In this document: piece by piece, positions 41,679 to 46,481 of the stretch
How positions within the stretch are numbered: the first letter of the stretch is position 1
How the letters are laid out: every line of letters begins with the position of its first letter
Assembly (NCBI RefSeq): GCF_903970965.1
Contig: NZ_CAJCKW010000008.1
Coordinates: 1-64,000 of the forward strand
Direction of reading: 5' to 3'
Source of the DNA: Aureimonas sp. ME7
GTDB lineage: Bacteria; Pseudomonadota; Alphaproteobacteria; Rhizobiales; Rhizobiaceae
Length of the DNA stretch: 64,000 bases
The notes under the pieces: model-generated
Database searches by the model: none
What the model was told of the DNA's origin: nothing
The model's input: the letters and a program-made list of their open reading frames with translations, nothing else
Position numbers and translations under genes: made by a program

Positions 41679-43067
41679 TCACCGAGCGCCCAAAGCCGCC
41701 AGCACGCGGGCCCAGGAGCGTTGGCCTTTGGCGAAGGAGGTGAGTTCGTATTTTTCGTTGGGCGAATGGATGCGGTCGTCGCCGAGGCCGAAGCCAATGA
41801 GGAGGGAGGGCATGCCGAGGCGTCGCTTGAACTCGCCGACGACGGGGATGGAGCCGCCCATGCCGATCATCACGGCGGGCTTGGGCCATTCGTCGGAGAG
41901 GGCCTGTTTGGCGGCTTGGAGGACAGGGGAATCGAAGGGAAGCTGGATGGCGGGGGAGCCGCCGTGCTCGTGGAACTCGGCCTCGCAGTCGGCGGGCAGG
42001 CGTTCACGCACGAAGGCGCGGAAGGCTTCGCGGATTTGCGATGGGTCCTGGTCGAAGACGAGGCGGAAGGAGACCTTGGCATGGGCTTCGGCCGCGATCA
42101 CGGTCTTGAAGCCCTTGCCGGTGTAGCCGCCTTCGATCCCGTTGACCTCGGCTGTGGGGCGCGACCAGGTCTGCTCGAGGACGGAGCGGCCCTTTTCGCC
42201 GGCCGGCACCGAGAGGCCGACGGCGCCGAGGAATTCCTTCTCGGAGAAGGGGAGTTCGCTCCAGACCTTGCGGATGTCGTCGGGGAGTTCGGGGACGCCG
42301 TCGTAGAAGCCGGGCAGGGTGACGCGGCCGGTTTCGTCGTGGAGGTCGGCTAGGATTTTGGCGAGGACGTGGATCGGGTTGGCGGCGGCGCCGCCGAAAT
42401 AGCCGGAATGGAGGTCCATGGAGGCGGCGCGGATGGTGACCTGTTCACCGACGAGGCCGCGCAGGCCGGTGGAAATCGCGGGCGTTTCGCGGTCCCACAT
42501 GTTGGTGTCGCAGATCAGCGCGACGTCGGCGGAGAGTTCCTCGCGGTTGGCGTCGAGGAAGGGCAGGAGCGAGGGCGAGCCAGACTCTTCCTCGCCTTCC
42601 AGGAAGATGGTGACGGTGCAGGGCAGGCCGCCGGTTTCGGCGATGAAGGCGCGGCAGGCCTCCACGAAGGTCATCAACTGACCCTTGTCGTCCGAGGTGC
42701 CGCGCCCGGTCAGGCGGCGCGAGCCGTCGCCTTGCGTCGCGACCTTGGGGTCGAAGGGGTCGGCGTCCCAGAGCTCCAGCGGATCGACCGGCTGGACGTC
42801 GTAGTGGCCGTAGAAGAGGACGTGCGGGGATCCGGCAGGGCCTTCGCGGCGCGCGATCACCATCGGGTGGCCGGCGGTCTCGGCGACGCGCGCTTCGAAG
42901 CCGATGGCCGACAGATCGCCCTGCAGCCATTCGGCGGCGCGCCGGCAGTCGCTCGCATAGGCGGGGTCAGTGGAGATCGAGGGAATGCGCAGGAGATCGA
43001 AGAGCCGCTCCACCGAACGGTCGAGGTTGAGATCGAGACAGGCGAGCACGCTGTCGAGTTCGGCCAT
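41679..43067 (-). CDS. M20 family metallopeptidase (dipeptidase)
   Basis: 462 residues, a di-zinc exopeptidase of the M20 family, carnosinase/CNDP-like branch. Metal ligands are in VLFYGHYDVQPVDP (H, then D), LTGRGTSDDKGQ (bridging D), TIFLEGEEESGSP (catalytic E and ligand E) and the late GDDRIHSPNEKYEL. A lid/dimerisation domain (residues about 200-370) contains SMDLHSGYFGGAAANP. It is predicted to cleave dipeptides or N-acyl amino acids in the cytoplasm. The start at 43067 has GAAGGA 7-9 nt upstream. The stop lies only 5 bp from repeat copy 1. Confidence 0.92.
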   Translation of the reverse strand: MAELDSVLACLDLNLDRSVERLFDLLRIPSISTDPAYASDCRRAAEWLQGDLSAIGFEARVAETAGHPMVIARREGPAGSPHVLFYGHYDVQPVDPLELWDADPFDPKVATQGDGSRRLTGRGTSDDKGQLMTFVEACRAFIAETGGLPCTVTIFLEGEEESGSPSLLPFLDANREELSADVALICDTNMWDRETPAISTGLRGLVGEQVTIRAASMDLHSGYFGGAAANPIHVLAKILADLHDETGRVTLPGFYDGVPELPDDIRKVWSELPFSEKEFLGAVGLSVPAGEKGRSVLEQTWSRPTAEVNGIEGGYTGKGFKTVIAAEAHAKVSFRLVFDQDPSQIREAFRAFVRERLPADCEAEFHEHGGSPAIQLPFDSPVLQAAKQALSDEWPKPAVMIGMGGSIPVVGEFKRRLGMPSLLIGFGLGDDRIHSPNEKYELTSFAKGQRSWARVLAALGAR

Positions 43068-43571
43068 GGGAGCATCCTTCGGTCGCAGAGGGGCGAGGCA
43101 CATGCCGCCCGTTGCGCTCTGCGATAGCGCGGAGCGCGCGCGGACGCAAAATCGTTCGTTGCCCGAACCGATCTGTCGCTGGAAGGACACAGAGTTTGGA
43201 AGGATGGAAAAGGGGAGAGTGAAAAGAGCCGTCGCGGACTGGAGGGGGGTTGTCGCGACGGCTCCTTCTCAGTAGAGCGGGATCCCGTGAGGGGGGATGG
43301 GATCGTCCGCTCCGGACATTCGGCTTAAAGCGGGGGACGAGCTTTTGGGCCGAACACGACGTCATCGTGTGCGTCGTTGTCGAGAAAATGCGCTTTGCCA
43401 GCTTTGAGTTCAATGGGTTTCGATCACGAAAGCGTGATTGGACGCATTAAACCTTTGTAAGGTGGGCTCGAGCGAAGGCCAGCCCCGATTTCATCGCGAA
43501 ATCCCTGGCGAAAACGAGCCGCCTGTCGGCTTCCATGGACAGGACGCGCGGCCCGCGATACCACCCTTTCC
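43068..43571. other. Intergenic region between the M20 and polA genes
   Basis: About 500 bp without a protein gene. It carries the promoters of two divergent genes and, on the minus strand, the candidate anti-SD sRNA described separately (about 43222-43379). A further hairpin ATCACG-aaag-CGTGAT lies near 43422-43438, upstream of polA. Confidence 0.6.
43222..43379 (-). ncRNA. Candidate trans-acting sRNA with C-rich (anti-Shine-Dalgarno) loops
   Basis: Read leftward the region can form three hairpins with C-rich loops. They are AAAGC/GCTTT with loop TCGTCCCCC (43345-43327), GATCCC/GGGATC with loop ATCCCCCCTCAC (43304-43281), and an 11-bp stem GAGCCGTCGCG/CGCGACGGCTC with loop ACAACCCCCCTCCAGTC (43264-43226). 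The last is followed at once by TTTT, a Rho-independent end. The CCCCCCTCC loop is complementary to ribosome-binding sites. Alphaproteobacterial sRNAs of the alpha-r14/NfeR1 and CcsR kinds share this design. A possible promoter is TTGAAC (43413-43408) with CATTTT (43390-43385), 17 nt apart. The 5' end and the family assignment are inferred. Confidence 0.5.
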
Positions 43572-46481
43572 ATGCAAAAGGGCGATCATCTCTTTCTCGT
43601 CGACGGCTCGGCCTACATCTTCCGAGCCTATCATGCGCTTCCCCCTCTCACGCGCAAGTCGGACGGGATGCCGGTGGGCGCCGTGTCGGGCTTCTGCAAC
43701 ATGTTGTGGAAGCTGGTGGAGGAATCGCGCGACACCTCGGTCGGCGTCGCGCCGACGCATTTCGCCGTCATCTTCGACCATTCCTCGACGACCTTCCGCA
43801 ACGCCCTCTACGACCAGTACAAGGCGAACCGGCAGGCGCCACCTGAGGACCTGAAGCCGCAGTTCGCGCTGATCCGCGAAGCGGTGCGCGCCTTCGACCT
43901 CGCTTGCGTCGAAAAGGAAGGCTTCGAAGCGGACGACCTGATCGCGACCTATACGCGGCTGGCGCGCGAGGCCGGCGGCGACGTCACCATCGTCTCCTCC
44001 GACAAGGACCTGATGCAGCTCGTCGGGCCGGGCGTCATCCTCTACGATCAGATGAAGGACAAGCGCCTCGGGCCGGAGGAGGTGCGCGAGAAGTTCGGCG
44101 TCCTCCCCGAAAAGATGATCGACCTCCAGGCGCTGGTCGGCGATAGTTCCGACAACGTGCCCGGCATTCCCGGCATCGGGCCGAAGACGGCGGCCGAGCT
44201 TCTGGAAACCTTCGGAACGCTCGACGCTCTTCTGGAACGTGCCGGCGAGATCAAGCAGGCCAAGCGCCGCGAGAACATCATCGCCCATGCCGATCAGGCC
44301 CGCCTGTCGCGCCAGCTCGTCACGCTCGACCAGAACACGCCGCTCGACGTCTCCCTCGACGATCTCTTCATCCACGAGCCGGATGGCGAGAAGCTCGTCG
44401 CCTACCTCAAGGCGATGGAGTTCACCACGCTGACGCGCCGCGTCGCCGCCAAGCTCGGCACCGACGCCTCGGAGGTGGAAGCCGCCAAGGTTGATACCAA
44501 GGCGCCGGCACGTGGGCCCGATCTCGACGCCAGTCAGACGTCGGGCGAGGACGCGCCGGCCGGCACGCCGCAGGCGCTGGCCGCTGCGCGGTTGGCGGAG
44601 GCGTCGGGCCAGGCCGTGGACCGGACGAAATATGAGACGGTCCGCGAGGAGGCGCATCTTCAGCGCTGGATCGCGCGCGCCTACGAGACCGGCATCCTCG
44701 CCTTCGACACCGAGACCAATTCGCTCGACGCGATGAAGGCCGATCTCGTCGGCCTGTCCTTCGCCGTCGCGCCGAACGAGGCCGCCTATGTCCCGATCGC
44801 CCATGTCGGCGAAGGGGCGGGCGATCTCCTGTCCGGCAGCGACGCGAAGGAAGGCGTCGGCGAGCAGATCCCGCTCGGGTGCGTTCTCGACCTTCTGAAG
44901 CCGGTCCTCACCGACCCCTCGATCCTCAAGATCGGGCAGAACGTCAAATACGACTATCTCGTCATGCTCCGGCACGACATCGCGCTTCAGCCCTTCGACG
45001 ACACGATGCTGATCTCCTACGTGCTCGACGCCTCGTCGTCGCTCGAAGGCCACGGCATGGACGAGTTGTCGGAGCGCTTCCTCGGGCACAAGCCGATCAG
45101 CTACAAGGAGCTGACCGGCACCGGCAAGGCGGCCCGGCCCATCGCCGCCTGCCCGATCGACAAGGTCACCGAATACGCCGCCGAGGACGCCGACGTGACG
45201 CTGCGTCTCTGGCGCGTGCTGAAACCCCGGCTCGCCGCCGAAGGGATGACCGCCGTCTACGAGCGGCTGGAGCGCCCGCTGGTGCCCGTGCTCGCCCGCA
45301 TGGAAGAACGCGGCATCCGCGCCGACCGGCAGATCCTGTCGCGCCTGTCCGGCCGTTTCGCCCAGAAGGCGGCCGGCCTCGAGGCCGACATCCACGTCAT
45401 GGCCGGCGAGCCGTTCAACATCGGCTCGCCCAAGCAGCTCGGCGAAATCCTCTTCGGCAAGCTCGGCCTGCCCGGCGCCAAGAAAACCAAGACCGGGCAA
45501 TGGGCGACCGACGCCAAGCTCCTCGAAGACCTCGCCACGCAAGGCCACGACCTGCCGCGCCGCATCGTCGACTGGCGCCAGATCACCAAGCTCAAGGGCA
45601 CCTATACCGACGCGCTCCCGACCTACATGGACGGGCACGAGCGCATCCACACGTCCTATTCCATGGCGTCCACCACCACCGGGCGCCTGTCCTCCTCCGA
45701 GCCGAACCTCCAGAACATCCCGGTCCGCACGCAGGAGGGCCGCGAAATCCGCACCGCCTTCGTGGCACCCTCCGGCCACAAGCTCCTGTCGGCCGACTAC
45801 TCACAGATCGAGCTGCGCCTTCTCGCCCACATGGCCGAGATCCCGCAGCTTGTGGAAGCCTTCCAGGCCGGCCAGGATATCCACGCCACGACGGCCTCCG
45901 AAATGTTCGGCGTGCCCGTCGAAGGGATGCCCGCCGACGTGCGACGCCGCGCCAAGGCGATCAACTTCGGCATCGTCTACGGCATCTCCGCCTTCGGCCT
46001 CGCCGCCCAGCTCGCCATCCCACAAGGCGAGGCCGCCAGCTACATCAAGCGCTACTTCGAGCGCTTCCCCGGCATCCGCGACTTCATGGACCGCACCAAG
46101 GCCTTCGCCAAGGAAACCGGCTACGTCGAAACTCTCTTCGGCCGCCGCGCCCACTATCCCGACATCAAGTCCTCCAACCCCCAGGTGCGCGCCGCCGTCG
46201 AGCGCGCCGCTCTCAACGCCCCCATCCAGGGCACCGCCGCCGACATCATCCGCCGCGCCATGATCCGCATGGAAGACGCGCTTCAGGCCGAGCGCCTCTC
46301 CGCCCGCATGCTCCTCCAGGTCCACGACGAACTCGTCTTCGAAGTCCCCGACGAGGAAATCGACGCCACCATCCCCATCATCCGCCACGTCATGGAAACC
46401 GCAGCCGACCCGGTCGTCGACCTCGTCGTGCCGCTGGTCGTCGACGCGCGCGCGGCGGGCAACTGGGACGAGGCGCATTGA
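43572..46481 (+). CDS. polA: DNA polymerase I
   Basis: 969 residues with all three domains. The N-terminal 5'-3' exonuclease (1-300) has [34 protein letters not shown] and the helix-hairpin-helix [22 protein letters not shown]. The 3'-5' proofreading exonuclease (about 350-550) keeps the DEDD residues, with [17 protein letters not shown] and [13 protein letters not shown]. The polymerase domain has [38 protein letters not shown], the O-helix [16 protein letters not shown] and the terminal [11 protein letters not shown]. It fills gaps and removes RNA primers. Repeat copy 2 begins 17 bp after its stop. Confidence 0.99.

Follow-up and report, generated by a model that had tools for sequence, protein, structure and literature searches.

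Segment 43222-43379 on the minus strand is probably a diverged alpha-r7 (ar7) small RNA gene that is likely to hinder translation in trans, by means of C-rich hairpin loops acting on G-rich ribosome-binding sites. It is located in the window, i.e. the whole stretch of 64,000 nucleotides from Aureimonas sp. ME7 which was analysed. The gene was identified by a covariance match, its position and the covariation of its stems; its transcription, mRNA binding and a lowered translation in ME7 we infer. The gene, its parts and its neighbors are:

43222..43379, minus strand: alpha-r7 (ar7) sRNA gene, 158 nt, predicted 5' end 43379, predicted 3' end 43222 (RF02342 match, match to model R2, fold)
43320..43353, minus strand: hairpin 1, with loop 1 UCGUCCCCC at 43340-43332 (fold; covariation helices 1 and 2; GUCCCCC in 70/70 homologues)
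43275..43312, minus strand: hairpin 2, with loop 2 AUCCCCCCUCAC at 43298-43287 (fold; covariation helix 3)
43222..43265, minus strand: hairpin 3, the predicted intrinsic terminator, with loop 3 AACCCCCCUCCA at 43251-43240 (covariation helix 4)
43572..46481, plus strand: polA, DNA polymerase I, 969 aa (ORF; Pfam DNA_pol_A, 521 bits)
41679..43067, minus strand: M20 peptidase gene, the next gene in the direction of the sRNA (Pfam Peptidase_M20, 111 bits)

The covariance match decided the family. In a permissive Rfam scan of 801 bases around the locus the ar7 model RF02342 aligned over its full length (model positions 1-145) to 43379-43223 with 55.5 bits (E = 7.3e-10). The models ar14 and CcsR1 scored 22.5 and 13.3 bits at the same place. 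Genome-wide, the segment was the single ar7 match at E ≤ 1 (E = 9.6e-10). Among 14 control genomes, five had ar7 matches at E ≤ 1, none of them above the cut-off, and at E ≤ 0.001 none of the 14 had a match. The score of 55.5 bits is below the Rfam gathering cut-off of 60 for RF02342, which is a calibration by the curators and no biological trait; at gathering thresholds tRNA was the sole family in the window. Membership in alpha-r7 is kept despite this score because other characteristics of the family are present: a full-length match, a divergent position beside polA, and three hairpins with C-rich loops, the last of which is the terminator.

The first-pass annotation had suggested alpha-r14/NfeR1 or CcsR for the segment, a reading in which its anti-Shine-Dalgarno loops would be functionally identical to theirs. 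Three C-loop hairpins and a terminator are compatible with this, and a weak alignment to the full ar14 model exists. Yet its 22.5 bits are 33 bits below ar7 and far from the ar14 cut-off of 58.8, the ar14 hallmark CCUCCUCCC is missing from 43222-43379 and from all 34 aligned sequences, and three real ar14 genes with 66.5-73 bits reside elsewhere in the ME7 genome. The 13.3 bits of CcsR1 compare with a cut-off of 65.3, and its best match in the genome (20.3 bits) is at another place. Further, a position beside polA is typical of alpha-r7. Membership in alpha-r14 or CcsR is refuted by score, loop sequence and position, and we give this assignment next to no weight. The covariance search with alpha-r14 and related models, which had been suggested as a check, thus returned ar7 as the best family.

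The three alpha-r14 (NfeR-type) genes of ME7 are at C12:729-846 (L099), C3:309096-309210 (L100) and C9:90543-90654 (L101). L100 has a 77-aa ORF with a DUF1127 domain (53.7 bits), and its sRNA begins 8 nt downstream of this ORF; L101 looked alike by eye. In Rhodobacter, CcsR is downstream of a DUF1127-type gene.

Is the sub-threshold ar7 score a property of the lineage? The ME7 polA is 91% identical to that of an uncultured Aureimonas. The seven nearest named polA loci (L013-L019) belong to Aureimonas, Aurantimonas, Antarcticirhabdus and Jiella, all Aurantimonadaceae. None of these seven loci was above the Rfam ar7 cut-off, and with ME7 included all eight Aurantimonadaceae loci examined score below it. 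A second model, R2, was built from 25 homologues without L013-L019, without the ME7 locus and without the diverged L024 and L092. R2 recognized the ME7 locus with 71.5 bits (E = 8.8e-13 genome-wide; the runner-up place in the genome had 21.0 bits) and found the other Aurantimonadaceae loci in seven of seven cases with 37.0-70.0 bits. Because a model blind to this lineage finds the ME7 locus and its seven relatives, the segment is, by sequence criteria, a diverged branch of alpha-r7 and not a chance match.

By position, strand and family the segment is the ME7 counterpart of Sinorhizobium meliloti SmrC7/sra03/SmelC023, and SmrC7 is what we take to be the alpha-r7 of S. meliloti. The RNA of S. 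meliloti (SmrC7 = sra03 = sm13 = SmelC023) shares with that of ME7 the divergent position beside polA, the relative strand, terminator, C-rich loops, covarying stems and a single copy. Its gene order is polA< sRNA> SMc02851>, and Northern blots displayed bands of about 140 and about 90 nt (PMC2573895); the mapped length of SmelC023 is 147 nt (PMC2873474). A three-hairpin fold was proposed (PMC2245857), the loops of SmelC023 are described as highly conserved and the stems as varying (PMC3927594, section 19), and in nodules the level of SmrC7 rises about 13-fold (PMC2780559, section 6). ME7 differs from the known alpha-r7 of RF02342 by the score of 55.5 bits, below 60, and by a loop 3 which, by eye, is longer than in most relatives.

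The start of polA is 193 nt from the predicted sRNA 5' end 43379 on the opposite strand, i.e. the two are divergent. On the other side, the predicted 3' end 43222 is 155 nt upstream of the M20 start codon (43067) on the same strand. This vicinity would fit a cis-acting 5' leader of the M20 peptidase gene, an attenuator or riboswitch and no trans-acting sRNA, and among the 69 named loci with the sRNA, 35 do have an M20 start within 400 nt downstream. However, M20 is farther away (596-2197 nt) in 24 of the 69 and outside of the sequence examined in 10, and the sRNA is kept. No Rfam riboswitch matched above its cut-off, and for the S. meliloti counterpart two separate RNA species, about 140 and about 90 nt long, are reported (PMC2573895). 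As 34 of the 69 loci have no M20 start in the 400 nt downstream, the leader reading is weakened, and we consider it very unlikely.

In the predicted fold the alpha-r7 segment also has a small 5' hairpin ahead of the three larger ones, and the stem of hairpin 3 passes directly into UUUU. The fold of 171 nt had -70.3 kcal/mol compared to -46.9 ± 3.9 for shuffled sequences (z = -6.0; 0 of 200 were equally stable). Of the individual hairpins, the third (z = -5.9) and the second (z = -2.6) exceeded their shuffles in stability; hairpin 1 (z = -1.0) and the 5' hairpin (z = -0.3) were no more stable than shuffles. Because hairpin 1 is not outstanding in the fold alone, its support comes from covariation. 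Of 70 strong homologues, 66 have a TTT no more than 20 nt beyond the point where the model stops. Sequence and fold accordingly agree with the prediction of a leftward sRNA-type gene with three C-loop hairpins, terminator and promoter of its own, as initially annotated.

Covariation was evaluated on a MAFFT alignment of 34 sequences, which was not structure-fitted and from which the consensus structure itself was derived. Here, 25 of 31 consensus pairs were changed on both sides. Paired cells amounted to 93.8%, compared to 79.2% in shuffled and at most 41.7% in slid alignments. Mean column identities, calculated over columns with at most 30% gaps, were 0.915 for loop 1 (9 columns), 0.828 for loop 2 (13 columns) and 0.618 for loop 3 (9 columns), with 0.733 for stems (62 columns) and 0.509 for other unpaired positions (41 columns). 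Compared to the stems, loops 1 and 2 are more conserved and loop 3 is less so. A loss of the C-rich loops in close relatives that keep the stems had been named as an argument against the gene. Such a loss was not seen, and GUCCCCC was present in all 70 strong matches; five deeper relatives with weaker matches have lost or altered single loops. Judged by eye, loop 1 is UCUCCCCAA in L068 and L075, which are without GUCCCCCG, and UUCCCCCG in L039; all three keep loop 2 CCCCUCUCC and have a loop 3 which is not C-rich. In L027, GUCCCCCG and a C-rich loop 3 are kept and loop 2 is not C-rich. L033 has UUCCCCUGG as loop 1, without GUCCCCCG, a C-rich loop 3 and a loop 2 that is not C-rich (also by eye). 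Because at least two C-rich loops are left in each of these deep relatives (L027, L033, L039, L068, L075), the loops look partly redundant.

How might such an RNA operate? We propose that the displayed C-rich hairpin loops would pair with G-rich ribosome-binding sites of mRNAs and thus hinder translation. The loops would be partly redundant; most likely, loop 3 (CCCUCC) would be a real anti-Shine-Dalgarno element and loops 1 (GUCCCCCG) and 2 (CCCCUC) would serve other G-rich sites. Pairing with start regions was examined in the own contig, using 52 of the 162 called genes which have a fairly unambiguous ATG, with starts set by a simple rule; the test sizes were 25 genes, which was too small, then 26 and 52. 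For loops 2 and 3, pairing was better at positions -20 to -3 than in control regions (p about 1e-5 for either loop, n = 52); for loop 1 p was 0.018. Compared to 20 shuffled loops, loop 3 was beyond all and loops 1 and 2 were within range. The positive control, the 16S anti-Shine-Dalgarno sequence, had p = 4e-7, yet was within the range of its own shuffles. Because the true 16S sequence also fails, the shuffle test is low-powered. Translation repression with loop 3 as the anti-Shine-Dalgarno element is favoured. Of the three loops, the third agrees most with the anti-Shine-Dalgarno role initially suggested; the sequence of loop 1, GUCCCCCG, is no standard Shine-Dalgarno complement. Loop 3, the best mimic, is yet less conserved (0.618) than the stems (0.733).

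A different function could be that of a sponge or protein decoy, in which the C-rich loops would mainly titrate a G-rich sRNA or an RNA-binding protein and not ribosome-binding sites. The most conserved loop 1 lacks complementarity to the Shine-Dalgarno sequence, and no preference for the Shine-Dalgarno region beyond composition was seen. Also, a Caulobacter sRNA family with an anti-Shine-Dalgarno motif is inactivated through pairing with a sponge RNA whose loop is G/A-rich (PMC12559287). On the other hand, the similarly designed sX13 acts on mRNAs (PMC3771888). We regard predominant action as a sponge or decoy as unlikely and prefer translation repression. A more elaborate reading, which we hold to be less likely than not, takes alpha-r7 for a modular reader of G-rich sites with two codes. 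The near-fixed loop 1 (GUCCCCCG), not an anti-Shine-Dalgarno sequence, might bind a single conserved partner of its own, either a protein or a G-rich RNA; loops 2 and 3, of anti-Shine-Dalgarno type and singly lost in deep relatives, might be exchangeable, and one regulator might act on TTAC/GTAA and TCAC/GTGA repeats across the Rhizobiaceae.

The sole published target idea in the accessible literature is the zapA operon, matched by loop 2 (PMC2245857). In ME7 an exact complement of loop 2 is absent upstream of zapA, and the idea was not reproduced. The openly readable literature, to which the search was confined with subscription papers outside its scope, yielded no experimentally tested alpha-r7 target.

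Several known sRNAs invite comparison. In Xanthomonas, sX13 has three C-rich loops, is located beside polA and acts as a repressor of mRNAs in which G-rich motifs lie close to the start codon (PMC3771888). Its likeness to alpha-r7, without sequence similarity, is stated in section 23 of that paper, in which the SmrC7 paper is cited for alpha-r7 at polA. Like alpha-r7, sX13 adjoins polA and forms three stem-loops, with loops of 4C/5C; unlike alpha-r7, it is from another class of bacteria, and it is likened here by description, not by sequence. Alpha-r14/NfeR1 (RF02344) occurs in the same genome and shares three hairpins and C-rich loops with the alpha-r7 of ME7, but has an identical CCUCCUCCC in every loop (PMC10746234) and several copies per genome at other loci. 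Alpha-R8/SisA-D of Caulobacter and CcsR of Rhodobacter (RF02791) carry motifs of the anti-Shine-Dalgarno type, a likely common feature with alpha-r7; SisA-D differ by a single-stranded UUUCCUCCCU stretch (PMC12559287).

Upstream of the gene, promoter elements and two repeats were recognized:

43408..43413, minus strand: -35 element TTGAAC (CC[CA]TTGA in 60/70 homologues, no farther than 60 nt ahead of the model start)
43385..43390, minus strand: -10 element CATTTT, after a 17-nt spacer
43423..43438, minus strand: candidate operator, inverted repeat ATCACG-CTTT-CGTGAT
43447..43460, minus strand: second candidate operator TTACAAAGGTTTAA, of the TTAC/GTAA type

The promoter TTGAAC-17-CATTTT had been called plausible in the first-pass annotation. 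It is present and resembles that of relatives; it ends 5 nt before the predicted 5' end and not about 8. We aligned 70 promoters on TTG[AT], which fixes TTG by construction and leaves the flanks free. A C precedes TTG in 96% and an A follows in 97%, and a -10 element resembling CAAATN or CATTTN comes after a spacer of 16-18 nt, mostly 17. In the Aurantimonadaceae the -10 element is CATTTT in five of eight loci.

The pattern TCAC-N5/6-GT[GT]A occurred in 49 of 70 upstream regions against 0.55 expected from mononucleotide shuffles, and TTAC-N5-7-[GT]TAA in 62 of 70 against 0.75 expected likewise, counts which are not independent as the sequences are related. Both types were together in 44 of 70. 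Seven of the eight Aurantimonadaceae loci have a TCAC/GTGA-type repeat upstream; L014 has neither repeat. Judged by sequence, the repeats at 43423-43460 are a candidate regulator site, and a regulator bound there would set the level of alpha-r7. The published motifs set against the repeats were those of ChvI and LsrB. The ChvI motifs given in the accessible part of PMC9731502 (TTGC-N3-GCAA; N-GCC-N8-GCC) are unlike them, as is the LsrB box of NfeR1, TGCA-N6-GCAT (PMC10746234), and ChvI was rejected as the regulator.

The distribution of the gene was examined with model R1, built from 34 sequences including the ME7 locus. Of the 80 named polA loci, 69 reached at least 55 bits with R1; its training set included 31 of them. 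Sixty-three of the 70 strong matches, ME7 included, are within 500 nt of polA. Eleven named loci were below 55 bits (L027, L029, L030, L033, L039, L061, L062, L068, L075, L086, L090). Weaker matches on the expected strand were found in L027 (39.7 bits), L033 (23.9 bits) and L039 (25.8 bits), and, with filters off, in L075 (14.6 bits) and L068 (12.0 bits), 157 nt from polA. Six of the 80 named loci were without a convincing copy (L029, L030, L061, L062, L086 and L090, the latter with 409 nt of upstream sequence). With Rfam ar7 at E ≤ 0.001, 12 of 297 genomes of the order had a match, and every one of them is from the own family, which has 13 genomes in the list. R1 at E ≤ 0.01 detected the gene in 169 of 199 genomes of this family; a few had two matches each. 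In the class, with stricter filters which lose weak matches, R1 at E ≤ 0.01 was positive in 2 of 289 genomes, the own genome and G336. The match in G336, which is from another family (L094, C1:730014-730136; 35.4 bits), contains CAGUCCCCCGCUG and CUCCCCUCC stretches and is not beside polA.

For SmelC023, a previous survey gives relatives in Rhizobiaceae, Brucellaceae and Phyllobacteriaceae (PMC3927594). In Mesorhizobium huakuii NBRC 15243 we observed a clear alpha-r7 (L054, 3688-3825; 116.2 bits). The accessible part of PMC5596092, in contrast, states that no Smr7C had been discovered in M. huakuii 7653R. The accessible text of PMC5107571, a paper that names Aureimonas and sRNA, lists homologues of Paracoccus sRNAs and mentions neither ar7 nor polA.

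An ancient polA-linked C-loop sRNA across the Alphaproteobacteria was considered as well and was not supported by class-wide hairpin scans. The class sample comprised 86 genomes, 78 with a polA match; 30 polA loci were kept, of which 27 were scanned (all but two partial matches and the locus of the own genome). A crude scan of 600-nt flanks detected a strong C-loop hairpin pair in none of these 27. When a looser scan was run on their 1.5-kb flanks, L117, L119 and L122 emerged, all three as weak candidates; in L110 and L117 the downstream side was short and the scan there covered part of their polA. As positive controls of the crude scan, two of three hairpins were seen in the ME7 locus and in five of six relatives and none in L066, where about 1 kb separates the sRNA from polA. 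With the looser scan the ME7 locus itself went undetected. Because the scans partly failed on positive controls the class-wide negative is weak. In L122, from another alphaproteobacterial family, a terminator-like CCCCC-loop hairpin follows a CCUCCCC-loop hairpin on the divergent strand in the 1.5-kb flank upstream of polA; the two may be a polA-linked analogue.

For alpha-r7, the family itself, the location next to polA and the C-rich loops have been published before. New are the Aurantimonadaceae branch of alpha-r7, the distinction of nearly fixed from drifting parts, and the conserved upstream repeats. In the broad alignment loops 1 and 2, the -35 element and the upstream repeats are nearly fixed; the stems and loop 3 drift. 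For annotation, the family is corrected from alpha-r14 to alpha-r7. The targets and the transcriptional regulator of a widely kept sRNA, which is nodule-induced in the model symbiont, are now directly testable.
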